Shown piece after piece: positions 20,435 to 62,430 of a DNA stretch of 64,000 nt (position 1 is the first letter of the stretch; each line of letters begins with the position of its first letter). The stretch is taken from assembly GCF_900090275.1 (NCBI RefSeq), contig NZ_LT607755.1:1116001-1180000 (forward strand), read 5' to 3'. The notes under the pieces were generated by a model, which was given only the letters and a program-made list of their open reading frames with translations, was not told where the DNA came from and did not search any database. The stretch is from Micromonospora zamorensis (lineage in GTDB: Bacteria; Actinomycetota; Actinomycetes; Mycobacteriales; Micromonosporaceae). A program made the position numbers and the translations under genes.

Positions 20435-20507
20435 GGACCGCATCGAGGTGAGGGCGGTCGGTGCGAGCCGGCCGCCCCCACACCGACCAGTCGAAGGGTG
20501 GAACCGC

Positions 20508-28956: not shown

Positions 28957-29021
28957 GCCCGCTCCGCGTCGCCCCGCCACGTGCCCGTGCCGGCCTGCGC
29001 CGAACCTGTCAGGAGATCGCC

Positions 29022-29726
29022 GTGCGAACCTTCCGCCGCCGGGCGCTCACGCTCGCCGCCCTGCTCGCCACCAGCAGTGGCCTCGCCGTCGTGGCAGCAC
29101 CCCCGGCCGCGTTCGCCGCGCCGGCCCTCACCGTCAGCGTGACCACCGGGCTGACGGACAAGCAGCAGGTCATCGTCAACGGTTCGGGTTTCGCCCCGAA
29201 CCTGAAGCAGATCGCCGTCGGTCAGTGCGTCGCCGGCTTCAAGGGCCCGACCGACTGCAATCTGTCCGGCGGCGCCGCGTTCGTCAACGCCGACGGCAGC
29301 GGGAAGCTGCCCACGGTCACCCTGAAGCTGGCCCAGAAGTTCGGCGCGTTCGACTGCACCAAGCGCGAGTGCGTGGTCGCGGCGCAGATCCTGCCCACGA
29401 GCGGCAACGCCGACCAGGTCGAGGCCAACAAGGTCTCGGTGACGTTGACGTTCGGCAAGAAGCCGGCGCAGAAGCCCGCACCGGCAACCCCGTCCGCGAC
29501 CCCAGCCGCGCCGGCGGCACCCTCGGCCACACCGGCCGCCACCACCTCACCCCCGACCGGGCCGGCGGGCGCCGCCGGCACATCGGCCCCGACGCTGGTC
29601 AACGCCAACCGGGTGAACGCCGGCCCGGACCGGTACGCCGTCACCGTGCTGGTCGGCTCCGGCCTGCTGTTGCTCTGCATCGGCCTGCTCGTGCTGATGC
29701 CCTACCGGAACCGGAGGTCCTCATGA
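29022..29726 (+). CDS. Neocarzinostatin-family surface protein, membrane anchored
   Basis: The protein has 234 residues from the GTG at 29022, set by CAGGAGATC and by the signal peptide MRTFRRRALTLAALLATSSG (cleaved near AFAAP). The mature ~110-residue domain has the neocarzinostatin pattern: VIVNGSGFAPNLKQIAVGQC, TDCNLSGGAAFVNADGSGKL, then DCTKRECVVAAQIL with paired cysteines. A Pro/Ala/Thr linker and one C-terminal helix with a basic tail (VLVGSGLLLLCIGLLVLMPY) anchor it. Classical members bind a hydrophobic chromophore in a groove of this fold. In this operon it could hold a hydrophobic substrate for the receptor; that is inference. The start lies 65 bp after the permease gene. Confidence 0.75.
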   Translation: MRTFRRRALTLAALLATSSGLAVVAAPPAAFAAPALTVSVTTGLTDKQQVIVNGSGFAPNLKQIAVGQCVAGFKGPTDCNLSGGAAFVNADGSGKLPTVTLKLAQKFGAFDCTKRECVVAAQILPTSGNADQVEANKVSVTLTFGKKPAQKPAPATPSATPAAPAAPSATPAATTSPPTGPAGAAGTSAPTLVNANRVNAGPDRYAVTVLVGSGLLLLCIGLLVLMPYRNRRSS

Positions 29727-31099
29727 CCCGACGTCGTTTCCCCGTCCGGATGGCAGCGCCCGCGCTCGTCCTGGCGCCGCTGCTGCTGACGATCCCAGCG
29801 GCGGCCCCCGCCCGGGCGGCGCCACCGGCCGCGGCGATCGGTCCCACGGCCGCGACGCTGGGCTGCCGGCTCTACTTCAACGACGCCGGCACCGGCAGCT
29901 CGCCGACGGTCTGGCAGGACACCTTCACCCTGACCCAGTCGCCGGCCGAGCCGAAGGTCGGCGACACGGTGACCGTCACACTCACCGCGCCCACCGGCCC
30001 CGACAACGGGCCGGTGGGGCTGAACGCCGGTGACGTTCCGGTGAACGTCACGCTGGCCCTGGGCGGTTCGCTCTCCGGCAGCGCGACGCTGCGGATGTCC
30101 TCGTACCCCGCGCGGGCCGTCGCCCCGGCGCAACCGCTCGGCCCGATCACCGCGACCGGCACCTACTTCGCCGCCGCGGCCGGGGCGGCGACGCTCACCG
30201 TCGGCCGGGTCACCTTCGCCAACGCCTCGGCCACGACGCACTGCTCGGCGGCCGGCGACCGCGACCACAAGGCCGCACCGGTGCCGACCTCTATCGTGGA
30301 GAGCTTCACCGTCGGCGGTACCGGCACCGCGACCCCACCGCCGAGCCCGTCCGCCTCCGCAACGCCGCCGCCCTCCGCGAAACCGTCGCCGTCGCTCCCG
30401 CCGTCCGCGACGGACGACCCGCCGCCGACGGCAACCGACGAGGTCGACACGTCGGCCCAACCCTTCGGCCCGAAAAGCGTGAAGCTGAACTGCAAGACGC
30501 TGAGCAGCCTCTCGACGTGGACCGCCACGCACACGCTGAGCATGTCGCCCAGCAACCCCGGTCGGGGTGCCAAGGTGACGGTGAGCCTGAAGTTCTCAGC
30601 CGGCCCGAAGAGCGGACCGGTGCCTGTCGGCGCCGGTGACCTGGTGCCCAAGGCGACCGTCAAGGTCGGCGGGGTGGGCAGCGGCACGGTCAACCTGACG
30701 GGCCCGGCGTACGGCGCGATCGACGCCAACGCGATACTGCCCGGCGCGACGCTGACCGGGACCTACACCACCTCGCAGGCGGGCCTGGTCAGTCTGACGG
30801 TCACCAACGTCGTCTTCGATCACCCGCAGGTCGACACCGAGTGCAACGCCGGCGCCGATCCGGTCACCGGCCCGAAGGAGACGTCGATCGTCGCCAAGTT
30901 CACGGTGAAGTCGCGGGCCGCGACCGACGACGAGGGCGAAGGCGGTGGCGGTGGCAACGGCGACGGTGGTGGGTCGCTCCCGACCACGGGCGAGGGGGGC
31001 GTGACGACGCTGATACTGCTCTGGTCGAGCGCGGCGCTCCTGCTCGGTGTCGGTCTGGTCGTGGTGCTGCCGAGGCGTCGCCGTCTGCTGCGCAGCTGA
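29723..31099 (+). CDS. LPXTG surface protein with two copies of the LGCRLYF-type domain
   Basis: The protein has 458 residues; its ATG overlaps the previous stop. The signal peptide ends near ARAAP. The first domain (about 45-190) nearly repeats the N-terminal domain of the WxL protein at 18782 (LGCRLYFNDAGTGSSP, then CSAAGDRDHK and PTSIVESFTV). A Pro/Ser linker leads to a second, diverged copy (VKLNCKTLSSLSTWTA ... ETSIVAKFTVK). The end has a sortase-like signal: SLPTTGEGG, a hydrophobic helix and PRRRRLLRS. It is therefore probably covalently fixed to the wall. Last gene of the operon; a strong terminator follows. Probably displays substrate-binding domains outside the wall (inferred). Confidence 0.75.
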   Translation: MTRRRFPVRMAAPALVLAPLLLTIPAAAPARAAPPAAAIGPTAATLGCRLYFNDAGTGSSPTVWQDTFTLTQSPAEPKVGDTVTVTLTAPTGPDNGPVGLNAGDVPVNVTLALGGSLSGSATLRMSSYPARAVAPAQPLGPITATGTYFAAAAGAATLTVGRVTFANASATTHCSAAGDRDHKAAPVPTSIVESFTVGGTGTATPPPSPSASATPPPSAKPSPSLPPSATDDPPPTATDEVDTSAQPFGPKSVKLNCKTLSSLSTWTATHTLSMSPSNPGRGAKVTVSLKFSAGPKSGPVPVGAGDLVPKATVKVGGVGSGTVNLTGPAYGAIDANAILPGATLTGTYTTSQAGLVSLTVTNVVFDHPQVDTECNAGADPVTGPKETSIVAKFTVKSRAATDDEGEGGGGGNGDGGGSLPTTGEGGVTTLILLWSSAALLLGVGLVVVLPRRRRLLRS

Positions 31100-31168: not shown

Positions 31169-31912
31169 TCAGTGCTCGCGCAGCAGGGAACCGGCGCCGT
31201 ACACCTTGTCGGTGATCCCGTTCTCGCGCAGCGCCATCCACCAGGTCGCCGCGTTGATGGCGATCACCGGCTTGCCGAGCCAGCGCTCGGCCTCGTCGGC
31301 CAGCCCGACCATCGACAGGTTGGTGCCGCATTGGACCAGGGCGTCGACGTCCGGGCCGTCCACGGCCAGCAGCGCCCGGCGCAACTCGTCCTCCGGAACG
31401 TGGGCGATGGAGACCGCGGTCGGGCACTTGAGTCCCTCGATCGCGGCCACCTCGAAGCCGATCTCGGAGAAGAACTGCACGACGTTCGTGTCGCCGATCG
31501 GTTGGTACGGTGTGACCACGCCGATGCGGCGTGCGCCGTAGAGGCGCAGTGCCCGCTCACACGCCTCCGCGCCGGTCGCCACCTCCAGCCCGGTGATCGC
31601 CTTGATCTGGGCGACGAACTGCCGGTTGCCCTCGACGCCGCCCCAGAACGTCTCGGCGGACATGCCCATCACCATGTAGTCGGGCTCGCAGGTCAGCACC
31701 CGCTCGCAGGCCCCGCCGATCTCGTCGCGGATCTGGGTCAGGAGGTTCTCGAAGTTGCCGTCGCTGGAGAGGTCCTGGTCGCGGATGTGGATCCGGGAGA
31801 AGTGCGCGGTCACCCCGGGCACTGTCATCCGGTAGAAGTCCGGCTCCACGATGGTGTTGGTCGACGGGGCGATGACGCCGAACTTGCGGCGCCAGCCGAG
31901 CGCGTCGGTCAT
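31169..31912 (-). CDS. Maleate isomerase/arylmalonate decarboxylase-family enzyme
   Basis: The protein has 247 residues; its ATG at 31912 overlaps the previous stop. It belongs to the Asp/Glu racemase superfamily: FGVIAPSTNTIVEPDFY at the N-terminus, MGMSAETFWGG after the first catalytic strand, GARRIGVVTPYQPIGD, and VQCGTNLS with the C-terminal catalytic cysteine. Maleate isomerases use two cysteines. Here the N-terminal position reads MGMSAE with no Cys, so one-cysteine chemistry (isomerisation by another route, or decarboxylation as in arylmalonate decarboxylase) is possible. It is the last gene of the nine-gene operon with the Rieske and RCCR-like proteins. It could act on a maleate-type ring fragment; that is a hypothesis. 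Confidence 0.78.
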   Translation of the reverse strand: MTDALGWRRKFGVIAPSTNTIVEPDFYRMTVPGVTAHFSRIHIRDQDLSSDGNFENLLTQIRDEIGGACERVLTCEPDYMVMGMSAETFWGGVEGNRQFVAQIKAITGLEVATGAEACERALRLYGARRIGVVTPYQPIGDTNVVQFFSEIGFEVAAIEGLKCPTAVSIAHVPEDELRRALLAVDGPDVDALVQCGTNLSMVGLADEAERWLGKPVIAINAATWWMALRENGITDKVYGAGSLLREH

Positions 31913-32592
31913 GAGCGGACGGCTCCTTCCTGGGCGGGGGTCGGGTGGGACGTGGTCGAGGCCGGGTGGTGAGCGCGCACGGTCAGCCACGCCGCGGCCA
32001 GCAGCGCCGCCTGTCCGAGGGTGTTGGTGCCCTGCTCCACCCACTGCATGGCCAGGGTTTCGTGATCGGGGTGGTTGCGCAGCGGCACCAGCAGCAGCAC
32101 GCAGGCCAGCCCGGCGACGTAGAGCGCCACCGCGCCCCAGGCACGCCGCCGGCCGGCGATGATCGCGGCCAGGACGCTGACGGTGGTCACGCCCGTGGTG
32201 GCGAGGGCGAAGATGGGGGCGAAGATGGCGTACGCGGCGGCCACGCCGGCGGTCACGGCCAGCACGGCGGCGAACGGCCACCACGGCACGCTACGCCCGC
32301 GCAGCGCGCTCGCCAGGCCCCAGATCAGCCCGACCGCGCCGACCGCCATCAGCGGGAACAGCGCCGCCTCCAGCCAGGGCAGGTCGATCGAGAATCCGGC
32401 CAGCAGCAACTTCCAGGTCGACTTGGCCAGGCCGCCGAGGCCGATCAGGACGGCGCTGACGCGGGCGACCGGGCCCACTTGCGGCACGACCCGGGCGGCC
32501 ACGCTGGCCAGGATCCAGAACCCGACCAGCGCCAGACCGGTCGGCACGAAGTCCTCCAGCGCGAGGACGACGGTGTAGTCGCTGCCGTTCAC
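31909..32592 (-). CDS. Polytopic membrane protein of unknown function
   Basis: The protein has 227 residues from a GTG that overlaps the SDR stop (GTGA). About six or seven hydrophobic helices are visible, including LALVGFWILASVAARVVP, AVGAVGLIWGLASAL, PFAAVLAVTAGVAAAYAIF and LYVAGLACVLLLVPL. The ends are short and polar. I do not recognise the family. Full translational coupling on both sides (GTGA and ATGA) ties it to the pathway enzymes, so it may transport an intermediate or hold the oxygenase at the membrane. No conserved heme- or metal-ligand pattern is obvious. Confidence 0.65.
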   Translation of the reverse strand: MNGSDYTVVLALEDFVPTGLALVGFWILASVAARVVPQVGPVARVSAVLIGLGGLAKSTWKLLLAGFSIDLPWLEAALFPLMAVGAVGLIWGLASALRGRSVPWWPFAAVLAVTAGVAAAYAIFAPIFALATTGVTTVSVLAAIIAGRRRAWGAVALYVAGLACVLLLVPLRNHPDHETLAMQWVEQGTNTLGQAALLAAAWLTVRAHHPASTTSHPTPAQEGAVRS

Positions 32593-33437
32593 GACAGGTG
32601 CTCGCGCCGGGTCACCGCGGGGCCGCCGACGGGCTCGCCGAAGAGGTCGCGCTTGCGGAAGGCGGCGACGGCGAACCGAGCGGCGGCCTTGCGGCTGGTC
32701 AGCCAGGCGGCCCGGCTGCCGTTGCGGCCCCCGGCGAGGACCCGGTCGGCCAGCCACGGGGTGACCGTCTCGACCCGGTCACCGAGGATGTTGAAGACCT
32801 TCTTGGCCTTCGCCAGCTCGTCCGGCGGGTAGTCGTGGGTGAGCAGGTCGGTCACGACGATGCCGGGGGAGAGGTGGTGCACGGTGACCCTGTCGGCGAC
32901 CCCGGCTGCGGCGAGCTCCTTGGCCAGCCCGTCGGTCAGGTAGGTGACCGCGCGCTTCGATGCCCCGTACCCGGTCAGCCCCGGCCGGGCCTGGCCGTTG
33001 GAGCCGAAGCCCTCCATGTTCCACAGCGCGCCGCGGCCCTGCTCGATCATCGCGGCGAGCACCACCGCGCTGGCCCGTGCCACCCCGCCCAGGTTCGCCG
33101 CGAGCACTCCGTCCAGCTCTGCCGGCGGCAGCTCCCACAGTGGGCGGCGGGCATGGTTCGTGCCCGCGTTGTTGATCCAGATGTCGACCCCGCCGAACGC
33201 CTCGGCGGCCGTCGCCCAGAGCACGGACACGTCGGCGCGGTCGGTGACGTCCGCACGTACCCCGAGCACCTCGGCTCCGGCCGGCACGGAGGCTTCGGAA
33301 CGCAGTGTGGCGAGCGCAGTTGCCACCGACTCCGCGCTGCGTCCGCAGAACGCGACCCGGGCGCCGCGGGCCAGCAGCGCGCGTACCAGGCCGGCACCGA
33401 TCCCGCGGGTGCCGCCGGTCACCACCACCGCGGTCAT
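32589..33437 (-). CDS. SDR of the NOL/NYC1 (chlorophyll b reductase) type
   Basis: The protein has 282 residues; its ATG overlaps the preceding stop. Classical SDR features: VVTGGTRGIGAGLVRALL for the cofactor, VDIWINNAGTNHARRPLW, and YGASKRAV with the catalytic Tyr and Lys. What sets it apart is the match with plant NOL/NYC1 recalled by eye: DIWINNAG(S/T)N, then the N-(I/M)-(D/E)-G-x-GS-(D/N)-G motif (NMEGFGSNG here), YGA(T/S)KR(S/A)V, VHHLSPGIVVTDLL, and a late (F/K)NILxxxxETVxPWL. The catalytic-Ser position is shifted within the glycine-rich loop, as in NOL. The plant enzymes reduce the C7 formyl group of chlorophyll b. The true substrate here is inferred only. Confidence 0.72.
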   Translation of the reverse strand: MTAVVVTGGTRGIGAGLVRALLARGARVAFCGRSAESVATALATLRSEASVPAGAEVLGVRADVTDRADVSVLWATAAEAFGGVDIWINNAGTNHARRPLWELPPAELDGVLAANLGGVARASAVVLAAMIEQGRGALWNMEGFGSNGQARPGLTGYGASKRAVTYLTDGLAKELAAAGVADRVTVHHLSPGIVVTDLLTHDYPPDELAKAKKVFNILGDRVETVTPWLADRVLAGGRNGSRAAWLTSRKAAARFAVAAFRKRDLFGEPVGGPAVTRREHLS

Positions 33438-34423
33438 TCGGCCGGCTCCCAGGCGAGCAGGCCGTGTAGGACGCTGTCCAGCACGTTGCCCCGGAACAGC
33501 TCGTACACCACGGCGAGGCGCCCGCCGGCGGACATGCCCGGTTCGGCGTCGATGGCGAACTCGCGGCCCTTGACCTTCCACACGTCGCCGCCGTCAGCGT
33601 GAAAGTGCCAGGACGGGTAGCTGGCCCGGCCGAAGCCCTGCGCGTTGCCCCAGGCGTCGGGGCCCTCGAAGAACAGCCGGTCACCGTCGCGGCGCTGCTC
33701 GACCACGTACCGCCGGTCCAGGCCAGCACCGGCCCAGCTGACCACCCGCCGGGTGCGCAGCAGATCGATCGGCTCCAGGTCGAGGCGCACCGCGACCTCG
33801 CCGCGCAGCTGCTGGTCGGCGCCCCACAGCTCGCAGCTGCCGGTGAACGCGCCGGCCTGCTTGGTCGGCAGGATGTACGGCACCGGACCGCGCCGCTCCT
33901 CGGCGGACAGGAACCGCGCCACCCGCTCGCGGGTGTCGGGGTTGGTGTCGTGGTCGAAGCTTCGGGTGTAGACGCCGTTGAAGCAGCCCACCACCGTCCA
34001 GCCCTGGTAGAGCATCGACGAGTAGACCTGGGTCTCGCCGTCGGGCAACACCTGATTCCAGGTGTTCAGGTCGACCTGCCAGCCGGGGCCGTAGTAATGC
34101 GAGTCTACAAAGGAGCCGTACGGCTGGCCGGTGCCGAAGAAGTCGGGGCCGGTGTAGACCCGGTCGGCGTCGGAGTCGATGACGCCGAAGGCGAACGGCG
34201 CGCCCAGCCGGTAGCGCCCGGCCAGCTCGCCCCCGCCGACCAGCCCGCCGTCCATGAAGTACGTGGTGACGCCGTCGGCGAAGACCGACGAGCGGCGGAT
34301 CTTCTCGAAGCCCTGCCACACACCGGTGGCGGTGAACAGCGACGGCCGGCCGTGCCACTCGCCGGCGATCCGCTGCTGCCACTCGCTCGGTTCAGCCGCC
34401 GCCGGTGCGGTCGGTTCACCCAT
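33434..34423 (-). CDS. Unknown protein, possibly a duplicated lipocalin-like barrel
   Basis: The protein has 329 residues; it overlaps the RCCR-like gene before it by 8 nt and the SDR gene after it by 4 nt. It is rich in beta strands with Trp/Gly spacing: RIAGEWHGRPSLFTATGVWQ, TTYFMDGGLVGGGELAG, then LNTWNQVLPDGETQVYSSML, and in the second half GAFTGSCELWGADQQLRGEV and YVVEQRRDGDRLFFEGPD. The spacing suggests two calycin/lipocalin-like halves, a fold that often binds hydrophobic ligands, including tetrapyrroles. No known active site is evident. Its fixed place between an RCCR-like and a NOL-like gene argues for a pathway role such as substrate binding or an unrecognised enzyme step. Confidence 0.6.
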   Translation of the reverse strand: MGEPTAPAAAEPSEWQQRIAGEWHGRPSLFTATGVWQGFEKIRRSSVFADGVTTYFMDGGLVGGGELAGRYRLGAPFAFGVIDSDADRVYTGPDFFGTGQPYGSFVDSHYYGPGWQVDLNTWNQVLPDGETQVYSSMLYQGWTVVGCFNGVYTRSFDHDTNPDTRERVARFLSAEERRGPVPYILPTKQAGAFTGSCELWGADQQLRGEVAVRLDLEPIDLLRTRRVVSWAGAGLDRRYVVEQRRDGDRLFFEGPDAWGNAQGFGRASYPSWHFHADGGDVWKVKGREFAIDAEPGMSAGGRLAVVYELFRGNVLDSVLHGLLAWEPAE

Positions 34424-35138
34424 TGCCGATCAGCTCCGCCCGGATCCGGTCGGTCGCCGGCTCGCCGATCAGCCGGGTGACCCGGGCCCAGACCGGGTCG
34501 ACGTCGGGACTGAACAGGTTGACCCGCACGGCGGTGTCGCGGGCGGCCAGGTCGGTGTCGGCCAGGCCCGCCACGACGTCGGCCGGTAGGCCGTCGGTCA
34601 CCAGCGCGGACCAGTGCTCGGCGTACGCGGAGACGGCGGCTCCGATCTTCCGGAACGCCTCCTCGGTGGCCCGGCTGACCAGCATCCACGGCGACATCAG
34701 CGCGTGCTGGCGCGGCCCGATGTCGGCCCGGCTCAGCCCGTCCATCGCGCTGGCCTCGGTGAAGACCGGGGTGAGCGGCTGGTACGCCGCGTCCAGGTAG
34801 GGCAGGTGGCTGCTCAGCTCGGCCCGGGGAATCAGGTCGAGGTGGTAGGCGTAGTAGTCGCCGCCGTACACCGAGTCCAGGGTGAAGTGCGGGACCGCGC
34901 TGTCGGCGGCGGTGAAGGCGAAGACCATGTGGCTGTCGAGGCGGATCATCGGAACGACCAGCCCGACGTAGACCACCTTGGCCACCGGCTGACCGGGTGC
35001 GCCCTGCCAGACCCGCAGCGCACCCACCGGGTCGGGCGACATCGGGCTGCTCAGCGGCTCGTCGATGACCGCGGTGAGCGGGTGCCGGGCGGTCAGGTGG
35101 GCCACCGCGTTCTCGCAGAGTTCCAGCGGGAGACTCAT
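34416..35138 (-). CDS. RCCR/bilin-reductase-like protein (first copy)
   Basis: The protein has 240 residues; its ATG overlaps the Rieske stop. It aligns by eye with plant red chlorophyll catabolite reductase: AVPHFTLDSVYGGDYYAYHL, then DLIPRAELSSHLPYLDAAYQ (plant: APNF..., ILDLPxRKDLVLxPDYLxxYYQ), SPWMLVSR at the plant SPTA strand, and ARDTAVRVNLF with an Asp where RCCR has RRDKSFRR. RCCR is a ferredoxin-dependent bilin reductase relative that reduces a linear tetrapyrrole made by the Rieske enzyme PaO, and a PaO-type gene sits directly upstream. Paired with a second RCCR-like gene at 37393. Family assignment is probable; activity is untested. Confidence 0.68.
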   Translation of the reverse strand: MSLPLELCENAVAHLTARHPLTAVIDEPLSSPMSPDPVGALRVWQGAPGQPVAKVVYVGLVVPMIRLDSHMVFAFTAADSAVPHFTLDSVYGGDYYAYHLDLIPRAELSSHLPYLDAAYQPLTPVFTEASAMDGLSRADIGPRQHALMSPWMLVSRATEEAFRKIGAAVSAYAEHWSALVTDGLPADVVAGLADTDLAARDTAVRVNLFSPDVDPVWARVTRLIGEPATDRIRAELIGNG

Positions 35139-36400
35139 GCCTGCTCCTTCGTCGTCGCGCTGCTGGTGGGGCTCGCCTGCGCCTCGGCTCCTGCGGCGGC
35201 GTCGGCGCCCTCTTCCTCGGTGATGCGCTTGAGCCCGATCCGCTGCGCCTCCGCCACGGTCGGGTGGTCGCCCTTGGCCTTGTGCACCCAGGCGCGGGCC
35301 AGCTCCGGGTTCTCCCGGCGGGCCGGCGAGGGGATGACGGTCGCCTCCCGGCGCGGCACGTCGCCCGTGATCCGGTCGGCGTCGGAGAGCATCCAGCCTC
35401 GTTCGGCCAGCTCCTGGCGGCGTCGCCGGTAGTGCACCGCGATGAGGTCGCTCTTGACGTGCAGTTCCGCGCCGAGGTCGAACGGAAGCAGCTCGGGGCG
35501 GACGTTGTTCACCACCTCGGCGTCCTGGTAGAAGATCTTGAGTACGCGCTGCACGGCGTTGCGGTTGGCCCACGCCCCGGTGAAGAAGGTGCGCAGTGCG
35601 ACCCACTTGACCAGCGTGGTCGTCTCGTCCACCGGAATGTTGGTGTCGTAGATGATCAGTTCACCGATCGACAGCCGGACGTGCAGCTTGATCATGTTGG
35701 GCAGCATCCAACCGGCCGAGGTGACCACCGGCGGGCGGTTGGCCAGGTCCGCGTTGTTGCGGTTGACCAGCGACCAGAGGCCCTTGGAGCGCGGCGGGTG
35801 CAGGCTGACCGTGGCGTACGCCGACCACTCGTCGGGGATTTCGAGCTCGTACTCGGGAACCTCGGGCTTCTGCGGGTTGCCGAATGCGCCGCCGTGCACG
35901 AAGGGCGCGTGCGCGATGTCGCAGCCGTTCTCCAGGATCCGCTCGTAGTTGGCCTTCCACAGGAACTCGCCGGTCACCGCGCGGAACTTGCCGCCGTTCT
36001 CCACCAGGTTGTCGAACTCCGGCCAGACCGGGATCGGCGGTCGCTCGGCCTCGGGCAGGTCGCCCATGAAGACCCAGACGAAGCCGTAGCGCTCCTGCAC
36101 GGGGTACGAGTCGACCCGGGCCTTGTTCGGGATGCCCCGGCCGGGCTGGTTCGCCGGGATCTTCGTGCACGCCCCACCCGGCTCGAACTCCCAGCCGTGA
36201 TACGGGCAGACGATGTTCTCGCCGGCCGTCGAACCGCCGGAGAGCGCCGCGCCTCGGTGCACGCACAGGTCGGACAGAGCCACCACGCGCCCGCGCGGGG
36301 TGCGGTAGAGGGCCAGGTACTGGCCGAGCACGGTGATCCGGGCCGGCTTGGTGGTGACCCGGTCCGAGAACTCGACCGCGTACCAGAAGTTCTTGAGCAT
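35135..36400 (-). CDS. PaO-type Rieske non-heme iron oxygenase
   Basis: The protein has 421 residues. The ATG at 36400 follows GGAGGTAAG. The opening LKNFWYAVEFSDRVTTKPAR and GQYLALYR are typical of the single-component Rieske branch that includes pheophorbide a oxygenase, Tic55 and similar bacterial enzymes. The [2Fe-2S] ligands are complete: CVH, 16 residues, then CPYHGW. The mononuclear iron site is NGCDIAHAPFVH (Asp, His, His). A Glu/Ala-rich tail of ~40 residues follows. The enzyme needs electrons from ferredoxin and a reductase, and none is encoded nearby. Flanked by a chlorophyllase-like hydrolase and an RCCR-like protein, it is the candidate ring-opening enzyme; the substrate is inferred. 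Confidence 0.85.
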   Translation of the reverse strand: MLKNFWYAVEFSDRVTTKPARITVLGQYLALYRTPRGRVVALSDLCVHRGAALSGGSTAGENIVCPYHGWEFEPGGACTKIPANQPGRGIPNKARVDSYPVQERYGFVWVFMGDLPEAERPPIPVWPEFDNLVENGGKFRAVTGEFLWKANYERILENGCDIAHAPFVHGGAFGNPQKPEVPEYELEIPDEWSAYATVSLHPPRSKGLWSLVNRNNADLANRPPVVTSAGWMLPNMIKLHVRLSIGELIIYDTNIPVDETTTLVKWVALRTFFTGAWANRNAVQRVLKIFYQDAEVVNNVRPELLPFDLGAELHVKSDLIAVHYRRRRQELAERGWMLSDADRITGDVPRREATVIPSPARRENPELARAWVHKAKGDHPTVAEAQRIGLKRITEEEGADAAAGAEAQASPTSSATTKEQA

Positions 36401-36406
36401 GGTGGC

Positions 36407-37396
36407 TTACCTCCGACGGAACGAGGCGATCGAAGAGGTGGTGCCGAGCTGTGCCAGCAATCGGTCGAAGCCGTCGGTCGGTTCGCCGCGAAGGTGGACG
36501 GCGAGGAACCCGGACAGCAGGTCGACCAGGAGCGCGCGGGTGGCTTCCGGCTCGGCGGTCGCCTCCTCGTCGAGGAAGGCGCGCGCCGAGGTGGGATCGA
36601 GCGGGTGCACGATGCTGAAGTGGTTGGCGCCGGCCAGCCGCACCAGCAGGTTGGTGCCGCCCGCGTCGGGCAGCGCCTCGTCGAAGGTGCGGGTGATCGG
36701 GTCGGCGCGGGTGGCCGTGTCCTCGCCGTACCGGTCGGCCGAGCCGTTGATCACGCCGTCGTGGGTGCCGGCGAGCAGCATGACCGGGCAGTCCACCTGG
36801 GCCGGCAGCACGGTGCCGGCCGGCCAACCGAGCATGGTCGCCACCATGGTGTGCGCCCCGTAGCTGGCCACCGCACGGACCTCGGGCAGGAACCGCGCCG
36901 ACTGCAGCGCGACCGTACCGCCGGCCGAGTGACCCACCAGCGCCACCCGGTCGAGGTCGAGCAACCCGTCGAGCGGCCCGGTGAGCTGCGCCAGCGCGTC
37001 GAGCACCGGGCGCAGCGAGGGGCTGGTCGGTCGGCTGCCGTAGCCGTCCGGCCGGGCCGCGTCCAGGTCGACGCCGGGAGTGATCCCGTGCAGGCCGGCG
37101 AAGAGCACTCCGACCCAGTCGTAGGTCACCGCGACGACGCCCCGGGCGGCCAGTTCCATTGCCAGCCAGCGGTAGGCGTCCTGCCCGACGTTGACGCCGG
37201 AGACCAGCAGGGCCACCGGGTACGGGGCACCGGCCGGGTCGGCCGCCAGGACCCCGCTGAGCCGCTCGGCGTCCGAGCCGGTGGGCCGGGCCGGGTAGTA
37301 GACCCGCAGGTGCGCGGTGTCGAACGGTGCCGGCGCGCCGGGGACGCGTACGGCCCACCAGACCGACCGGACACCGCCTTCCTGCCCACCGCTCAT
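36407..37396 (-). CDS. Chlorophyllase-like alpha/beta hydrolase
   Basis: The protein has 329 residues; its ATG overlaps the RCCR-like stop. It has an alpha/beta-hydrolase core with nucleophile elbow LVGHSAGGTVALQ, acid strand VMLLAGTHDGVI and a late histidine in ANHFSIVHP. The segment PVALLVSGVNVGQDAYRWLA, then MELAARGVVAVTYDW, parallels the chlorophyllase family (PVLLLLHGxxLxNxxYxxLL, HxASHGFIVVAPQ) more than ordinary esterases, and the GHSxGG elbow fits. Chlorophyllases remove phytol from chlorophyll. Alternatives are other ester or lactone hydrolases. It ends 6 bp before the Rieske start. The neighbours raise the chlorophyllase reading but do not prove it. Confidence 0.65.
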   Translation of the reverse strand: MSGGQEGGVRSVWWAVRVPGAPAPFDTAHLRVYYPARPTGSDAERLSGVLAADPAGAPYPVALLVSGVNVGQDAYRWLAMELAARGVVAVTYDWVGVLFAGLHGITPGVDLDAARPDGYGSRPTSPSLRPVLDALAQLTGPLDGLLDLDRVALVGHSAGGTVALQSARFLPEVRAVASYGAHTMVATMLGWPAGTVLPAQVDCPVMLLAGTHDGVINGSADRYGEDTATRADPITRTFDEALPDAGGTNLLVRLAGANHFSIVHPLDPTSARAFLDEEATAEPEATRALLVDLLSGFLAVHLRGEPTDGFDRLLAQLGTTSSIASFRRR

Positions 37397-38199
37397 GCCG
37401 ACGGCCGGGGGAGTTCGCGGTCGCCGCCCCAGAGCGCGCGGACGAGCTGGTTGGTGGTCTCCTCGCCGAAGTAGCGCACGCCCATCACGTTCGCCGGGTC
37501 GCGGTCGGCGATATTGCGGCGGATCCGCAGATCGGTCTCGGCGAGCGCGGCCCGCTCCTCGGCTGGCACCGGCTCGGCCTCGTCGACCCAGCGCAGCCAG
37601 CGGTCGACGTGGGCGTGGGTCACCTGGCTGACCTTCTCGATGTTCTCCGGGCTGCGGTCGAAGGAGTAGCAGTACGCCGTCGGTGACAGGCTGGCCCGGA
37701 TGAACCCGGCGCGGCTGACGAAGTAGTCGAACGCCGGGTCGTTGCGCAGTTGCAGCCACTCTTCGTTGGCCGGCTCGTAGTACCTGTCGTAGTAGTCGCC
37801 GTCCTCGACCATGTTGACCCGGGGCACCGAGTCGACGTAGAACCAGCCGCCGGGCCAGACCAGCAGGGCCAATCCCAGGTGCGGCACCCTGACCTGCGGG
37901 CCCAGCCAACACGTCAGGTGCAGGTTGGCGAAGCTGGCACCCGGGTTGCCCAGCCAGGAGTGCACGAGCCAGTCGACCTCGGGTCCGGTGTACGCGGCGA
38001 GCGAGCCGCCCGGTCCGTTCGGGTAGTCCCCGTAGTTTTCCAGCGCCTCGGTGGACGGGTCGCGGGTCAGCGCGAACCGTGCGGTGATCTTGTCCTTCAG
38101 CTCATTCAGGAGTGCCTGGTACCGGTGGAACGTCTCGTGGACGTCGACAGTGGGGGAGTCGTCGAGCATCTCCTCGACGTGTTTCAAGGTGTCGGCCAC
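37393..38199 (-). CDS. RCCR-like protein (second copy)
   Basis: The protein has 268 residues from the GTG at 38199 (GAAAGG upstream). The alignment by eye to plant RCCR is the clearer of the two: RVPHLGLALLVWPGGWFYVD, then YYDRYYEPANEEW, FIRASLSPTAYCYSFDRSPE (plant: VRSAFSPTASMLKI), THAHVDRWLRWVDEA where the plant has RDHVxPxAKxVLxxW, and LAETDLRIRRNIADRD with the Asp at the expected place, ending in FGEETTNQLVRAL (plant: FGEEVSSRVVHAI). It lies first after the nitrilase-like gene and is coupled to the hydrolase. Two different RCCR-like chains in one operon suggest a heteromer or two successive reductions. Confidence 0.72.
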   Translation of the reverse strand: MADTLKHVEEMLDDSPTVDVHETFHRYQALLNELKDKITARFALTRDPSTEALENYGDYPNGPGGSLAAYTGPEVDWLVHSWLGNPGASFANLHLTCWLGPQVRVPHLGLALLVWPGGWFYVDSVPRVNMVEDGDYYDRYYEPANEEWLQLRNDPAFDYFVSRAGFIRASLSPTAYCYSFDRSPENIEKVSQVTHAHVDRWLRWVDEAEPVPAEERAALAETDLRIRRNIADRDPANVMGVRYFGEETTNQLVRALWGGDRELPRPSA

Positions 38200-38201
38200 G
38201 G

Positions 38202-39842
38202 TCAGCGCCTTTCGGTAAGGGCCTGGACGAGCCGCCACGGGCGGCCGTCGACGAGGTCGGTGCGGCGGGAGACGAGCCTGTTCGCCGCCTGCGCCGGCGC
38301 CACGACGGCATGCGTGACGGACCGGTCGGCGGCGATGTCGGTGCGCAGTGGGCTGCTGATCCGGCCGGTGAACGGCCCGGCCCAGGTGGTCCAGAGGGTG
38401 AAGTCGGCGCTGAGGGCGAAGACCGCGGCGCCGGTGCCGAGCGGCCCGGCGGCGATCACGTTGAGCCGGTTTTCCGCAGCCCGCTCCGGCAGGCCCAGCG
38501 CCAGCTCCCATGGCTCGCGCGGGGTGAACGGCACGGCGACCACATCGGCGTCGGCGAGCGCGGCGAGCCGGAACGTCTCCGGGAAGATCGCGTCGTCGCC
38601 GACCACGATCGCCAGCCGCCCCCAGGGCAGGTCGAAGGTGCGCAGCGCGTCTCCGGGCCGCACGGCGTCGCGGGCCGCGCCGGCCCGATGCAGTTGTGGC
38701 TGCTCGCCGAGCACGCCATCCGGGCCGATGAGCAGCCCGACCGGGCCGTCGGCGGTGCGGGCGGTGGCCACCGCGTACCCGTTGGTGCCACGCAGTTTCG
38801 GTGTCAGCGCCGCGGCCACCTCGGCCGGCCCGACGTGCGTGCCGAGGGCGTTCTCGGCGAGCACGGCGAGCAGCGCGCCCTCGGCGACCGCCTTGGCGAG
38901 CAGGTCGGCAGCCTGGCCGGGCTCCCGCGGCCGGACCACGGCGACCGGCAGGCTCGACGCGCTGGGCGGCCGCCGGCGGCCGGTCGGCGCGTCCCCGAGC
39001 GGGCCGTAGAGCTCCGGCCGGCGGGCCGCGAGGATGTCGCTGCCGTCCGGGCGGTGCTTGTCGTCGGCGCACTCCGGAGCGATGTCGGCGATGACGACCG
39101 CCTCACCGGTACGCGGCCCCTTGGCCAGCACCGTGCCGTCCGGTGCGACGATCTGCGACTCGCCGGCCCCGTGCAGCCACTGCTCCGGCACGCCCAGGCC
39201 GCGGCTCATGGCCGGCAGATGCTCGGCGGGCAGCAGCGGGCCGACCTTGTTGGCGGCGATCACCCAGGCCCGGTTCTCCGCGGCCCGCACCGGAATGTGC
39301 AGCGCTGCCTCATCGGTGGCGAACGAGTTCAGGCTGTTGAGCAGCACCTGCGCGCCGCGCAGCGTGAGCCCGCGGGTGGTCTCGGGAATGACGCCCTCCA
39401 TGCAGGCGTACATGCCGAGCCGGCCGATCGGGGTGTCGAGCACCGGTCCGACCTCGGTCGCCGGGTCGAGGTGGTCGTTCTCGGCACCCATCAGGACCTG
39501 CTTGTCGCAGCTGCCGAGCAGCGCCCCGTCCGGGCCGAAGAGGAAGTTGGTGCCGCCGGTGCGTCCGTCGGGATAGGCGTGCGTGACATTGATCTTGATA
39601 TACACCCGGTGCTCGGCGGCGCTCGCGGAGATCGCGGTGAGGAAATCGTCGCCCGGCCGGGTGGCCAGAGCGTGCGCCTGGGCGCGGTCGGTGTACCAGG
39701 CCAGATGGTTGCAGAACTCGGGTAGCACCACGAGCTGTGCGCCCTGTCGGGCGGCGTCGGTGACCAGGCGCAGGCAGGTGGCCAGATTGGCCCCGATGTC
39801 CTGGCCGGCCTCGAACTGTACGGCGGCAACCCTGATGGTCAT
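38202..39842 (-). CDS. Tandem carbon-nitrogen hydrolase: active domain fused to an inactive one
   Basis: The protein has 546 residues from the ATG at 39842; it is the first gene of the nine-gene operon, 20 bp from a GGAAAC operator. Domain 1 (1-275) has the nitrilase triad: Glu in VVLPEFCNHLAW, Lys in GSCDKQVLMGAENDH and Cys in LGMYACMEGVIPE. Domain 2 (about 305-540) repeats the fold (VLAENALG, IVVGDDAIFPETF) but lacks the cysteine, so it is probably structural. Such enzymes hydrolyse amides, carbamoyl groups or nitriles in the cytoplasm. In a tetrapyrrole scheme it could open an amide or imide fragment; that is a guess. Ordinary members have one domain of ~280 residues. Confidence 0.82.
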   Translation of the reverse strand: MTIRVAAVQFEAGQDIGANLATCLRLVTDAARQGAQLVVLPEFCNHLAWYTDRAQAHALATRPGDDFLTAISASAAEHRVYIKINVTHAYPDGRTGGTNFLFGPDGALLGSCDKQVLMGAENDHLDPATEVGPVLDTPIGRLGMYACMEGVIPETTRGLTLRGAQVLLNSLNSFATDEAALHIPVRAAENRAWVIAANKVGPLLPAEHLPAMSRGLGVPEQWLHGAGESQIVAPDGTVLAKGPRTGEAVVIADIAPECADDKHRPDGSDILAARRPELYGPLGDAPTGRRRPPSASSLPVAVVRPREPGQAADLLAKAVAEGALLAVLAENALGTHVGPAEVAAALTPKLRGTNGYAVATARTADGPVGLLIGPDGVLGEQPQLHRAGAARDAVRPGDALRTFDLPWGRLAIVVGDDAIFPETFRLAALADADVVAVPFTPREPWELALGLPERAAENRLNVIAAGPLGTGAAVFALSADFTLWTTWAGPFTGRISSPLRTDIAADRSVTHAVVAPAQAANRLVSRRTDLVDGRPWRLVQALTERR

Positions 39843-39861
39843 TCCCGCTCCGGTTCCCCTG

Positions 39862-39878
39862 GCGAAACGCTGTTTCCA
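39862..39878. promoter_or_regulatory. Operator between the divergent nitrilase and Dabb genes (GCGAAACGCTGTTTCCA)
   Basis: A 7-3-7 site with the left arm GCGAAAC and a perfect right arm. It lies 20 bp from the start of the nine-gene operon and 44 bp before the Dabb gene, and can therefore control both directions. A plausible -10-like ACATACACT follows on the plus strand. Confidence 0.72.
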
Positions 39879-39921
39879 GAACATACACTCGGGCGACGCC
39901 GGGGAACAGGGGGAAGAACAG

Positions 39922-40197
39922 GTGTTTACGCACGTGGTACTCATGAAGTTCGACGATGCGGCCGATGCTGCCAAGGCGAGGTCGCTGCTGGAAGGTCTGG
40001 CCAGCTCAATTGATGAGATCGCGACGCTGACCGTCGCCCTGGACACGCTGCGGACCCCGGTCTCCTACGACCTGTGCATGATCAGCACACACACCGACGT
40101 GGACGCGTTGCGCGCCTACCAGTCCCACCCCGCCCACCTGGAGGTGGCGGGCTGGCTCAAGCCGCGCCTCGCGGCCCGCGTCGTCGTCGACTACTGA
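39922..40197 (+). CDS. Dabb-family (stress-responsive A/B barrel) small protein
   Basis: The protein has 91 residues. The GTG at 39922 follows GGGGGAAGAACAG. The sequence fits the dimeric alpha/beta barrel fold: MFTHVVLMKFDDAADAAKAR opening, a central helix (LLEGLASSIDEI), DLCMISTHTDVDALRAYQSH and PAHLEVAGWLKPRL near the end, a typical Dabb closing. Members are small cytoplasmic proteins; some are cyclases or bind small aromatic ligands. It is transcribed divergently from the nine-gene operon and shares its operator, so it is part of the pathway regulon. Specific role unknown. Confidence 0.78.
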   Translation: MFTHVVLMKFDDAADAAKARSLLEGLASSIDEIATLTVALDTLRTPVSYDLCMISTHTDVDALRAYQSHPAHLEVAGWLKPRLAARVVVDY

Positions 40198-40226: not shown

Positions 40227-41696
40227 TCAGCCCGGGTACGCGTTGGCGGGCAGCCCGGCGCCACCCGGCCGGAACGGGCCGGGCGCGTGCACGACGCAGG
40301 TCTGCGCGTACTCGGCCAGCCCCTCCTCGGCATACTCACGGCCGTAGCCGGAGCGCTTCACCCCACCGAACGGCGCCCGCAGCGACAGCCCGGTGCGGTT
40401 GTGCGTGTTGACGAAGACGAAGCCCGCCTCGACCCGACGGGCCAGCGCGAACGCCCGCTCCTCGTCGGCCGACCAGACCGAGCCGCCAAGGCCCAGCTCG
40501 TCGGCGTTGACCCGGGCCAGCAGTTCCTCCTCGTCGTCGTAGAGCAGCAGCGGCACCGTCGGCCCGAACTGCTCCCCGGTGATCACCTCGGCGTCGTCCG
40601 GCGCGTTCAGCACGAGGGTCGGGGCCACGAAGTACCCGCCGGCCAGGTCGGTGCCACCGTCGACAGTGCCCAGCGGCAGCGCCGTGGCACCCCGGGCGAC
40701 GGCCGCCGCGACGATCCGCTCGATCCGGGCGACGGCACCGGCCGAGATGACCGGGCCCATGCTCACCCCCGGCGTGAGCGCGTCACCGACGCGCAGCACC
40801 TCCGCCGCGGCGGCCCGGTACGCCGCCACGAACTCGTCGCGGCGGTCGCGGTGCACATACAGGCGCTTGGCGGCCATGCACACCTGGCCGCTGGTGGCGA
40901 AACTCGCCAGGACCAGCCGGCGCATCGGCTCGGTGCCCAGGTCGGCGTCCGGCAGGAAGATCGCCGCGTCGTTGCCGCCCAGCTCCAGCACGACCGGTGT
41001 GGTCTGGGTGGCCGCGGTCGCCGCCACCTGCCGGGCCGCCACGCCGCCGCCGGTGAACGCCACCTTGCGCACCAGCGGGTGCCCGACCAACGCCGCACCG
41101 GCGGCGGCGTCGCCGTGGACGACCGCCAGCGTCCCGCCGGGCAGCGCCCCGGCGAGCAGGCGCAGCACCTCCGAGACCGCCAGCGGGGCCAGCGGCGAGG
41201 GCTTGACCACCACCGCGTTGCCGGCGGCGAGGGCCGGGGCCACCTTGAGCAGGGTGAGGATGATCGGCGCGTTCCACGGCGTGATCGCGGCGACCACACC
41301 GTACGGCCGGGGCAGCCGCAGCAGCCGACCGGCCGCGTCGTCGATCTCCCGATCCGCGTACGCCGCCGGGGCGTGCTCGACGACCCAGCGCAGGTACGTG
41401 CCGGCGAACCCGACCTCGCCGCGGCAGTCGGCGAGCACCTTGCCCGACTCCCGGGCCAGCAGCTCGGCCAACGGTTCGAGCCGCCCGGCGATCGCGTCGG
41501 CGCCAGCGGCCAGCGCAGCGAGCCGCCGCGCGATGCCGGTGGCCGCCCAGCTGCGCTGCGCGGCGTCGGCCCGGCGGACCAGGGCGTCCACCCGCTCGGG
41601 CCCGCTGACACCGACAGTGCCGACCAGCTCGCTGGTCCTGGACGGGTTCTCCCGCTCGATCACCGCGCCGCGCGGGCCGTCGCCGGGTGCCGTCAT
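40227..41696 (-). CDS. NAD(P)-dependent aldehyde dehydrogenase
   Basis: The protein has 489 residues; its ATG overlaps the monooxygenase stop. Conserved ALDH elements are in order: GVVAAITPWNAPIILTLLKV, VVVKPSPLAPLAV, VAFTGGGVAARQVA, LELGGNDAAIF, SGQVCMAAKRLYV with the catalytic Cys, and EQFGPTVPLLLYDDEEE. FGGVKRSGYGRE is the usual ending. It oxidises an aldehyde to an acid in the cytoplasm. It is the last gene of the six-gene minus-strand operon and is convergent with the Dabb gene. A second ALDH gene lies at 43818 in the same operon, so two different aldehydes, or two chain lengths, may arise in the pathway. Confidence 0.9.
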   Translation of the reverse strand: MTAPGDGPRGAVIERENPSRTSELVGTVGVSGPERVDALVRRADAAQRSWAATGIARRLAALAAGADAIAGRLEPLAELLARESGKVLADCRGEVGFAGTYLRWVVEHAPAAYADREIDDAAGRLLRLPRPYGVVAAITPWNAPIILTLLKVAPALAAGNAVVVKPSPLAPLAVSEVLRLLAGALPGGTLAVVHGDAAAGAALVGHPLVRKVAFTGGGVAARQVAATAATQTTPVVLELGGNDAAIFLPDADLGTEPMRRLVLASFATSGQVCMAAKRLYVHRDRRDEFVAAYRAAAAEVLRVGDALTPGVSMGPVISAGAVARIERIVAAAVARGATALPLGTVDGGTDLAGGYFVAPTLVLNAPDDAEVITGEQFGPTVPLLLYDDEEELLARVNADELGLGGSVWSADEERAFALARRVEAGFVFVNTHNRTGLSLRAPFGGVKRSGYGREYAEEGLAEYAQTCVVHAPGPFRPGGAGLPANAYPG

Positions 41697-42898
41697 GCCC
41701 GGGCCGCCGGCTGCCCGGCGTCGGGGCGCAGCGAGGCGATCATCGAGCTGCGCAGCAGGTACGCCCGGGCCGCCGCCGGATCCTCGGCCAGCGCGCGCAG
41801 GCCGGCCAGCTGCGCGGACCGCACCTGCGGATCGGTGGCCCGCATCCGGCGGTAGTTCTGGTCGGAGACCTCCTGCACGTAGGTCAGGGCGATCCGGCGC
41901 CGCTCGTCGGCCACCGCCGTCACCGCCCGGTCCAGCTCCCCGCCGTCCGGTGCCGGGCGGCCCGAGGCCAGCACCTGCGCGTAGGCGACCGCGTCGTGGA
42001 TGCCCGAGTTCATGCCCAGCCCACCGAGCGGGTTGTTGACGTGCGCGGCGTCGCCGGCCAGCAGCACCCGCCCCTGCCGGAACGTCGCGGCGACCCGCTG
42101 GTGCACCCGGTACAAACTGGCGTGCGCCACCCGCCACGGCCGGCCCGGATCGGCGATCGCCCGCAGCCGCCCGTCGAGCCGGTCCAGCTCGTGCGCGTCA
42201 GGGGTGTCCTCGGGGGTGGGCAGCAGCACCCGCCAGTGGTCCGGCGTGCGCAGCAGCACCGACCACTCGACCGGGTCGAAGACGTAGTTGACGTACGCCA
42301 GCGGGCCGAGCAGCGCCGGCAGGTCCTCGTCGGTGGAGGCCACCAGGAACCGTTCGGGGTAGGTGATCCCGTCGAACGGCAACTCCAGCGCCCGCCGCAC
42401 CGCCGAACTGGCGCCGTCGGCCGCGATCAGCCAGTCGCCGGCCACCTCCCGGCCGTCCCCGGCGACAGCGACCACACCGCCGTCGGCCTGATCCGCGGCC
42501 TGTCGTACCGAGTCGACCGGCCAACCGAAGCGGACCCGGGCCGTCGGCTGCCGGGCCAGGTGCGCCAGCAGGATCACGCACAGCTTGGACTGCTCGCACT
42601 GCACCCGGTACGGGAACGGGGTGTCCTCGGCGAGCACCGAGAGGTCCAGCTCCGCGATCAGTCCCTCCCGGCGATCCCGGTAGGCGAACGTCGGCGCCAC
42701 CAGCCCGCGCGCCAACAGGTCCGCGCCGACCCCCAATGCGTCGAGCATCTCCAGCGTCGGCGGGTGGAACGTGGAGGCACGGGACTCGGCGGCGAGGTCG
42801 TCACCGGCCTCCAGCACTGTCACCTCGCAGCCCCGGCGGGCCAGCGCGAGCGCCGCGGTCAGCCCGACCGGCCCCGCTCCGGCGATCAGCACGTGCAT
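41693..42898 (-). CDS. FAD-dependent aromatic hydroxylase-like monooxygenase
   Basis: The protein has 401 residues from the ATG at 42898, which overlaps the preceding stop by one base. It is a group A flavoprotein: LIAGAGPVGLTAALALARRG for the ADP part, the internal IAADGASSAVRRAL (DG motif) and VLLAGDAAHVNNPLGGLGMN (GD motif). Length matches p-hydroxybenzoate-hydroxylase-type enzymes, which insert one oxygen into a phenolic or heteroaromatic ring using NAD(P)H. It lies between the ICL-type lyase and an ALDH gene. A pyrrolic or phenolic intermediate is plausible; nothing shows which. Confidence 0.85.
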   Translation of the reverse strand: MHVLIAGAGPVGLTAALALARRGCEVTVLEAGDDLAAESRASTFHPPTLEMLDALGVGADLLARGLVAPTFAYRDRREGLIAELDLSVLAEDTPFPYRVQCEQSKLCVILLAHLARQPTARVRFGWPVDSVRQAADQADGGVVAVAGDGREVAGDWLIAADGASSAVRRALELPFDGITYPERFLVASTDEDLPALLGPLAYVNYVFDPVEWSVLLRTPDHWRVLLPTPEDTPDAHELDRLDGRLRAIADPGRPWRVAHASLYRVHQRVAATFRQGRVLLAGDAAHVNNPLGGLGMNSGIHDAVAYAQVLASGRPAPDGGELDRAVTAVADERRRIALTYVQEVSDQNYRRMRATDPQVRSAQLAGLRALAEDPAAARAYLLRSSMIASLRPDAGQPAARA

Positions 42899-46585: not shown

Positions 46586-46590
46586 GTGGG

Positions 46591-47544: not shown

Positions 47545-47567
47545 TGGCAGGTTCTCCGTTTCGCATG

Positions 47568-47584
47568 AGGAAACGTCGTTACCA
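47568..47584 (-). promoter_or_regulatory. Operator of the six-gene operon (AGGAAACGTCGTTACCA)
   Basis: Matches the consensus at 12 of 14 arm positions and lies 24 bp upstream of the flavin reductase start. A neighbouring GTTTCGCATGAGGAAAC also forms a GAAAC dyad, so two overlapping sites may exist. Confidence 0.62.
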
Positions 47585-47664
47585 GAAACGTAACGACGGG
47601 TGGTGGCCCGTGTCAACCGCCGATCGGTCCGGGCGCCTCGCCGCCGAAAATCGGTGACCCGCTC

Positions 47665-47681
47665 AGGACACGGTGTTTCGC
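47665..47681 (+). promoter_or_regulatory. Weak operator copy before the IclR gene (AGGACACGGTGTTTCGC)
   Basis: Matches 10 of 14 arm positions, 69 bp before the IclR start. The TTTCGCTAG on its right repeats, inverted, the CTAGCGAAAC at 18724 and 51379. Consistent with autoregulation; the weakest copy in the set. Confidence 0.45.
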
Positions 47682-47749
47682 TAGGTGAAATCGAGCGCCC
47701 TACACTGCTCTGGAGACGGACGCACGAACAGCGCTGTGGAGGCCCAACC

Positions 47750-52928: not shown

Positions 52929-52974
52929 CCGGAGCCGTCGTGCACATCAATGACTCAGGGAAGGACGACACCGG

Positions 52975-62418: not shown

Positions 62419-62430
62419 CGGAGGCTACCC

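Follow-up and report, generated by a model that had tools for sequence, protein, structure and literature searches.

Two described systems stand closest to the locus considered here. In the PaO/phyllobilin pathway of plants, red chlorophyll catabolite reductase (RCCR) works alongside a Rieske oxygenase, a hydrolase and a short-chain dehydrogenase/reductase (SDR), and plants stop at phyllobilins. In non-photosynthetic bacteria, FDBR-superfamily genes lie in conserved heterotroph clusters, the pre-PcyA and PcyA clusters; the pre-PcyA clusters combine heme oxygenase with an Fe-S protein, V4R proteins and globins that bind bilins, or else contain a B12-binding protein and a globin (PMC10151467). 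In that paper, sequences from Ca. Schekmanbacteria fall in the RCCR outgroup, and its main text contains none of the terms Actinobacteria, Rieske, Micromonospora or Streptomyces (PMC10151467). The locus reported here lies in a 64,000-nucleotide stretch of the Micromonospora zamorensis genome (contig NZ_LT607755.1, positions 1,116,001 to 1,180,000), hereafter the window, whose positions 31169-39842 are filled by nine minus-strand genes. As in the plant pathway, the RCC-reductase-family proteins of this operon are accompanied by a Rieske oxygenase, a hydrolase and an SDR. It differs in having a Rieske oxygenase of the VanA_C type, two RCCR paralogues (RCCR1 and RCCR2) and a hydrolase (abh) that is not specifically a chlorophyllase. 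It also carries a tandem nitrilase (nit2), an arylmalonate-decarboxylase relative (amdase) and a DUF3598-fold protein (unk33), none of them, like the second RCCR paralogue, known to have a counterpart in the plant pathway, and a likely mineralisation tail. An earlier note, made from the sequence alone, had described the operon as a mirror of the plant pathway; taken enzyme by enzyme, this parallel is unsupported in view of the oxygenase, the hydrolase and the extra genes. As for the pre-PcyA and PcyA clusters, their partner families (heme oxygenase, Fe-S protein, globins, V4R and B12-binding proteins) are absent among the window genes scanned.

The best reading of the locus is that RCC-reductase-family proteins here belong to a catabolic island of bacteria, in which the oxygenase is of another kind and a mineralisation tail is likely. 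Such an island would probably serve the uptake and breakdown of a tetrapyrrole, most likely one derived from chlorophyll. Tetrapyrrole catabolism is supported by the fold of the reductases, their conserved acid residues, the co-occurrence of the operon genes and the surrounding catabolic and uptake genes. New elements are the lipocalin-like double-barrel protein, the upstream oxidative genes with an IclR regulator and the downstream surface and ABC uptake module, all pointing to catabolism. Neither a comparable actinobacterial operon nor a bacterial gene set for chlorophyll catabolism was among the matches listed from open-access literature other than bioRxiv, and no description of such a gene set is known to us.

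Both RCCR1 and RCCR2 are members of the RCCR/FDBR superfamily; the missing RCCR match or unrelated fold that the earlier note had named as counting against its proposal was found for neither. Its assignment of the gene at 37393 is borne out: RCCR1 scores 45.7 bits against Pfam RCC_reductase (PF06405; cut-off 24.9), or 48.1 bits in the genome search, and when its family profile is compared with solved structures, plant RCCR ranks first (E 4e-22), well ahead of the bilin reductases. For the gene at 34416, the assignment stands at the level of superfamily and fold and fails at that of Pfam membership, RCCR2 (P0011) falling under the PF06405 gathering score at 11.6 bits (E 0.16). At E<=1, PF06405 matches 21 of the 32 members of the RCCR2 family alignment (best 2.4e-5). 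Homology between RCCR2 and RCCR1 is returned by hhalign at 98.7% (E 4.7e-16), and the predicted RCCR2 model (pLDDT 95.8), which has the RCCR/FDBR fold, takes plant RCCR as its first nine Foldseek matches (best E 5e-11). Since RCCR2 lies below the Pfam cut-off but shows superfamily homology, it is filed as a superfamily paralogue rather than as an RCC reductase. Both proteins retain an aspartate at the position of plant Asp291, a numbering we deduce from the presumed position of F218V on the alignment; in RCCR1 this is D234 (100/100 rows) and in RCCR2 D214 (95/97, two gaps). At the plant Glu154 position, RCCR2 has no glutamate; D88 is found there, with aspartate in 95 of 97 rows and gaps in the other two, and we take the position to be equivalent to Asp105 of PcyA. 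Of the alignments used here and below, A1 holds 20 rows out of 33 references, with P0010 standing for the window's own sequence, and A2-A8 hold the window protein with 31/34, 26/28, 24/31, 19/26, 18/31, 15/26 and 18/26 references, drawn from 21 of the 80 named loci described next and 10 others.

The co-occurrence of the operon genes was scored in the best 80 of 240 confirmed loci from a scan of named genomes; these were ranked by RCCR1 similarity and are therefore close relatives, and a gene was counted as present at a score of at least 100 bits (at least 40 for the membrane protein gene mem) anywhere in the locus, adjacency not being required. Eight genes, all but mem, share the same ~20-kb locus in 74 of the 80, and all nine do so in 51. 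The eight-gene figure is far above chance, by chance figures that ignore genome relatedness. The Rieske gene is present in 78 of the 80 loci, which come from Micromonospora, Actinoplanes, Catellatospora, Dactylosporangium, Actinomadura, Nonomuraea, Streptosporangium, Streptomyces, Nocardia and other genera. Departures are the lack of abh in L093 and L095, of unk33 in L130, and of nit2, mem and amdase in L102 (a 5.7-kb contig), together with a nit2 on the opposite strand in L085; distant lineages (L051-L055) have a partial or rearranged gene set. The operon of L081 (Actinomadura sp. J1-007) is rearranged, its unk33 and Rieske genes having moved to the end in inverted orientation. Across the class, RCC_reductase is found in 15 of 394 genomes, the window's own included, and the presence and absence of RCCR2 matches exactly these 15. 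A strong unk33 match marks 12 of the 394, all within the 15; against this co-occurrence stand the three RCCR genomes without a match (G209, G226 and G214; 86%, 76% and 99% complete) and a weak thirteenth match outside the 15 (G430, E 4.7e-4). As a single query, RCCR1 finds 3 of 396 phylum genomes, its own and two other lineages at 44-48% identity. In viral contigs a pattern matched 15 stretches, none of which was confirmed as an RCCR1 relative, and 72,556 plasmid records gave zero RCCR1 matches, so that a mobile origin of the locus is unsupported by either collection.

The best evidence for one shared, catabolic pathway is that RCCR paralogues are again surrounded by these accessory families where the genome layout is unrelated. 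This is seen in family f7, whose assemblies span 1.0-1.7 Mb (assembly sizes at 60-100% completeness), with a GC content of 0.55-0.61 in the three loci measured. In each of two f7 genomes, G163 and G191 (1.4-1.7 Mb), RCCR-type genes stand at eight separate sites, some of them partial genes at contig ends (loci L014-L033, L137-L141). The f7 operon reads RCCR1-abh-Rieske-unk33-unk33-SDR-(233-aa protein)-amdase, with a LIV transporter adjoining it on the opposite strand (L138), and a second cluster (L137) joins two RCCR2 genes to nit2, an FAD monooxygenase, an aldehyde dehydrogenase, abh and an NMT1-like protein. Two more RCCR2-type copies (L140, L141) have housekeeping genes as neighbours and are not accompanied by the operon set. 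In another distant locus, L051, the operon set is found with genes for an isochorismatase-type hydrolase, an HMG-CoA-lyase-like protein, a CoA-transferase, an aldehyde dehydrogenase and a PEP mutase. A third paralogue type, RCCR3 (N-terminal TKTI[HP]EFL), occurs in f7 and in f29, in the latter 18-21 kb from the main operon.

The unk33 model is a double lipocalin-like barrel over the whole chain, with the DUF3598/BFA1 fold that is shared with proteins of cyanobacteria and chloroplasts, and its lobes resemble nitrobindin and CpeS. A Pfam scan of 27 unk33 members returned nothing meaningful and no sequence-level DUF3598 match, and the function of the solved DUF3598 protein 2o62 is unknown according to its title. 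Judged by its model, unk33 is a putative pigment-binding protein. The nit2 protein matches CN_hydrolase at 146 bits; its N-terminal domain has E42-K114-C147, kept in 86-87 of 88 rows (the remainder being gaps), and in its C-terminal domain an aspartate, D417, occupies the catalytic cysteine position in 82 of 88 rows. This second domain seems to be a pseudo-enzyme domain. The amdase protein matches Pfam Amdase at 70.1 bits and a putative maleate isomerase of the PDB at E 1.8e-14. In common with the arylmalonate decarboxylase/maleate isomerase/EutA superfamily it has this Pfam match, and it differs in one of the two cysteine positions: the window protein has C195 at one and Met84 at the other, methionine stands at the latter in 107 of 107 rows and valine at the former in 19 of 107. 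Its score is far under the equivalog cut-offs of EutA and AMDase, and identification as a maleate isomerase was rejected in favour of a superfamily-level assignment. Many Nocardia loci have a second amdase-like gene close to the operon (L110:16278-17018, L041:1893-2633 and others). Valine stands in for cysteine in, among others, the second L110 copy and the amdase proteins of L051, L052 and L055, where this replacement makes a different chemistry likely. In the SDR, Gly143 of a W-N-M-E-G stretch sits at the usual catalytic serine position, with Y157 and K161 kept. In libraries that offered no NOL/NYC1 model or plant sequence, the protein matches generic SDRs alone, and its nearest solved structures (among the best 60 of 323 matches) are likewise generic SDRs; the label 'NOL/NYC1-like' given by the earlier note is tentative. 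An ARAGORN tRNA-Thr call at 33126-33218, antisense within the SDR gene, is probably a false positive.

The coordinates of the operon and its neighbours are collected in Table 1. The nine minus-strand open reading frames (ORFs) of the earlier note were correctly located; for several genes, however, start refinement showed the 5' ends to have been overextended, and with refined starts the eight junctions measure +2, -4, +6, -4, -8, -4, -4 and -4 bases. The host genome consists of one contig of 7.1 Mb, in which RCC_reductase and the RCCR2 type each have a single match, and near relatives of the RCCR1 protein (94-99% identity) occur in Micromonospora arida, M. rubida and Micromonospora sp. HK10.

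Table 1. Genes of the operon and of the adjoining upstream and uptake modules, in window coordinates. Counts refer to the 80 loci; those for upstream genes are flank-limited (<=10 kb each).
Feature	Coordinates	Strand	Remarks
nit2, tandem carbon-nitrogen hydrolase, 546 aa	38202..39842	-	Pfam CN_hydrolase
RCCR1, red chlorophyll catabolite reductase family, 268 aa	37393..38199	-	Pfam RCC_reductase
abh, alpha/beta hydrolase, 329 aa	36407..37396	-	presumed triad S157-D213-H259
Rieske mononuclear-iron oxygenase, VanA_C type, 421 aa	35135..36400	-	
RCCR2, second RCCR/FDBR-superfamily reductase, 240 aa	34416..35138	-	
unk33, double lipocalin-like beta-barrel protein, DUF3598/BFA1 fold, 329 aa	33434..34423	-	
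SDR, short-chain dehydrogenase/reductase, 282 aa	32589..33437	-	
mem, polytopic membrane protein, 227 aa	31909..32592	-	no Pfam match
amdase, arylmalonate decarboxylase/EutA/maleate isomerase superfamily, 247 aa	31169..31912	-	
Dabb-domain protein	39922..40197	+	divergent from operon; start approximate, in ORF 39583-40197; 52/80 loci
ALDH2, aldehyde dehydrogenase	40227..41690	-	start approximate, in ORF 40227-42137; 72/80 loci
FAD-dependent monooxygenase (FAD_binding_3)	41693..42898	-	66/80 loci
PEP mutase/isocitrate-lyase family C-C lyase	42898..43821	-	20/80 loci
ALDH1, aldehyde dehydrogenase	43818..45302	-	start approximate, in ORF 43818-45539; 65/80 loci
acyl-CoA-dehydrogenase-fold flavin monooxygenase component	45311..46588	-	start approximate, in ORF 45311-47566; 54/80 loci
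flavin reductase	46591..47520	-	start approximate, in ORF 46591-47751; 36/80 loci, limited by 10-kb flanks
IclR-family regulator	47600..48568	+	divergent; ORF coordinates; 36/80 loci, limited by 10-kb flanks
lipoprotein-like substrate-binding protein	22723..24081	+	relative of two L138 proteins beside LIV-type transporter
ABC ATPase fused to hydrophobic N-terminal region	24068..26149	+	
LIV-type permease pair fused to ATPase	26146..28956	+	
neocarzinostatin-family protein	28953..29726	+	signal-like N-terminus, hydrophobic C-terminus (read from sequence)
secreted-looking repeat protein	29723..31099	+	LPTTG sorting-type C-terminus (read from sequence); no Pfam match

Upstream of the operon, the divergent IclR regulator probably controls the locus. 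The PDB relatives of the C-C lyase are headed by carboxyvinyl-carboxyphosphonate phosphorylmutase and also include 2,3-dimethylmalate lyase and 2-methylisocitrate lyase; a dialkylmalate lyase activity would suit acids derived from pyrrole rings. On the other side, the substrate-binding protein has no Pfam match of its own, a related copy matching Peripla_BP_6, and the neocarzinostatin-family and LPTTG-ended proteins beside the LIV-type transporter may form a cell-wall relay for a hydrophobic pigment. Neocarzinostatin-type relatives (E<=1e-10) occur in 37 of 105 loci, a flank-limited set in which several genomes are counted twice, and matches to this protein and to the permease reach other families (L046, L047 and L049, with L138 for the permease). 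A WxL-domain and WxL-interacting-protein pair at 18782-21536 adjoins the transporter module, and both proteins have relatives in L050, beside another family's operon. A further plus-strand gene set lies at 52131-63588 and includes an AMP-binding enzyme (52975-54516).

A route through these genes can be proposed. The neocarzinostatin-like and LPXTG-like cell-wall proteins and the LIV-type ABC transporter would capture and import the pigment or its fragments, after which the alpha/beta hydrolase could cleave an ester, phytyl or methyl, and the SDR could reduce a carbonyl side group. The Rieske oxygenase, with its cofactor sites intact, would then open or oxidise the macrocycle. On the linear product, RCCR1 and RCCR2 would each reduce a different double bond, and the lipocalin-like unk33 may hold that product; of this step, the folds of RCCR2 and unk33 and the key acids are shown. 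Flavin monooxygenases and aldehyde dehydrogenases might next cleave and oxidise the product, yielding lactams or maleimides derived from its pyrroles, whose C-N bonds the nitrilase would open, and the Amdase-superfamily enzyme may isomerise or decarboxylate a substituted maleate-type acid. Finally, the PEP-mutase/isocitrate-lyase-type enzyme, and elsewhere the relatives of HMG-CoA lyase and CoA-transferase, would feed carbon to central metabolism.

Several observations weigh against tetrapyrrole catabolism of this kind. The Rieske protein has all its cluster ligands (C46/H48/C65/H68) and a complete motif for the mononuclear iron (N158/D161/H164/H169), both conserved in 93-94 of 94 relatives, so that the earlier note's complete iron ligands stand, but its 'PaO-type' label is rejected at the family level: all 25 scanned members of the Rieske family alignment A4 (P0005 and 24 of 31 references) match VanA_C (PF19112) and none matches the PaO domain (PF08417), even at E<=10. 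The closest solved relatives (SxtDIOX, SxtT, the methylxanthine demethylase NdmA and dicamba demethylase) are, moreover, small-molecule enzymes. A chlorophyllase identity failed to be established for abh (P0012), and the 'chlorophyllase-like' description of the gene at 36407 is accordingly weak: the score against Chlorophyllase (PF07224) is 14.8 bits for a gathering cut-off of 26, and within its family alignment (A5, E<=1) chlorophyllase matches 20 of 20 members (best 4.8e-7), about level with PETase and DLH, which match 19 of 20 each (best 1.4e-7 and 5e-7). Where the plant enzyme has Glu154, RCCR1 has an alanine, A111 (Ala in 95 of 100 rows, Val in 4, Thr in 1), and the structural comparison of RCCR2 ends in a near-tie between plant RCCR (Z 23.8), PebB (23.7) and HY2 (23.3). 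In terms of distribution, RCC_reductase is rare in the genus (5/160 congeners), in two of the 80 loci (L090 and L098) RCCR1 stands without the rest of the operon, mem is recognisable in 54/80, the C-C lyase occurs in a mere quarter (20/80), and LIV-permease relatives (E<=1e-30) in just 14 of the 105 loci.

With these points in the balance, the earlier note's claim that the organism takes up and degrades chlorophyll, pheophorbide or another tetrapyrrole is supported for tetrapyrrole catabolism in general, which is moderately probable, the specific substrate (chlorophyll, pheophorbide, phyllobilin or another bilin) being a matter of inference. The likeliest form of this reading, with a chlorophyll-derived substrate (pheophorbide, chlorophyllide or a ring-opened product), has overall a little less than an even chance. 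A second form of tetrapyrrole catabolism and the chief rival, in which external bilins unrelated to chlorophyll (biliverdin, bilirubin or algal and cyanobacterial phycobilins) are degraded and the Rieske enzyme acts on the linear bilin or a fragment of it, is unlikely, though it draws on the activity of the RCCR/FDBR superfamily on linear tetrapyrroles, on the aspartate of RCCR2 at the Glu154 position (Asp105 of PcyA, as we presume), on the equal structural closeness of RCCR2 to PebB, HY2 and RCCR, and on the CpeS-like and nitrobindin-like lobes of unk33. It has to contend with the clear preference of the RCCR1 profile for plant RCCR over the bilin reductases and with the near-constant presence of the Rieske gene, as expected if ring opening belongs to the pathway. 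As to a bilin source within the cell, a search of the host genome for heme oxygenase (PF01126) found none, its control being positive in 3 of 14 known genomes; this argues only against self-made heme-derived bilins.

It is less probable still that a different nitrogen-containing aromatic or pyrrolic natural product is degraded by recruited RCCR-fold reductases and that the likeness to chlorophyll breakdown is incidental. The small substrates of the solved Rieske relatives would suit this, and the nitrilase, Amdase-superfamily enzyme, FAD monooxygenase and aldehyde dehydrogenases are generic catabolic parts; yet two RCCR-fold paralogues with conserved plant-like acids share the operon with unk33, whose lobes are like heme- and bilin-handling barrels. 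That the genes build rather than degrade a bilin-like secondary metabolite is very improbable, for although actinobacteria produce many such metabolites, the operon is patchy in the genus and the window has an AMP-binding enzyme and further enzymes outside the locus, the IclR regulator, aldehyde dehydrogenases, uptake-type ABC transporter, C-C lyase and CoA-transferase relatives nearby, the presence and expansion of the operon in small genomes and the absence of heme oxygenase from the host all point the other way.

Vast amounts of chlorophyll are destroyed every year. Should tetrapyrrole catabolism of chlorophyll-derived pigments prove correct, the locus may represent an actinobacterial chlorophyll-eating island spread across many genera, combining surface capture, ABC import, VanA-type Rieske ring opening, reduction by an RCCR pair and pyrrole mineralisation. 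In this broad form the proposal is tentative, with the balance somewhat against it; it would allow that small-genome lineages, with about eight RCCR-type genes each, specialise in such substrates, and that the plant-type RCC reductase belongs to an older bacterial catabolic family. If true, these genes would provide markers and purified-enzyme tests for the microbial degradation of chlorophyll or bilins, would place the RCCR family in a bacterial context and point to a nutrient that small-genome actinobacteria may use, by an actinobacterial route that resembles the yellowing of leaves in autumn.

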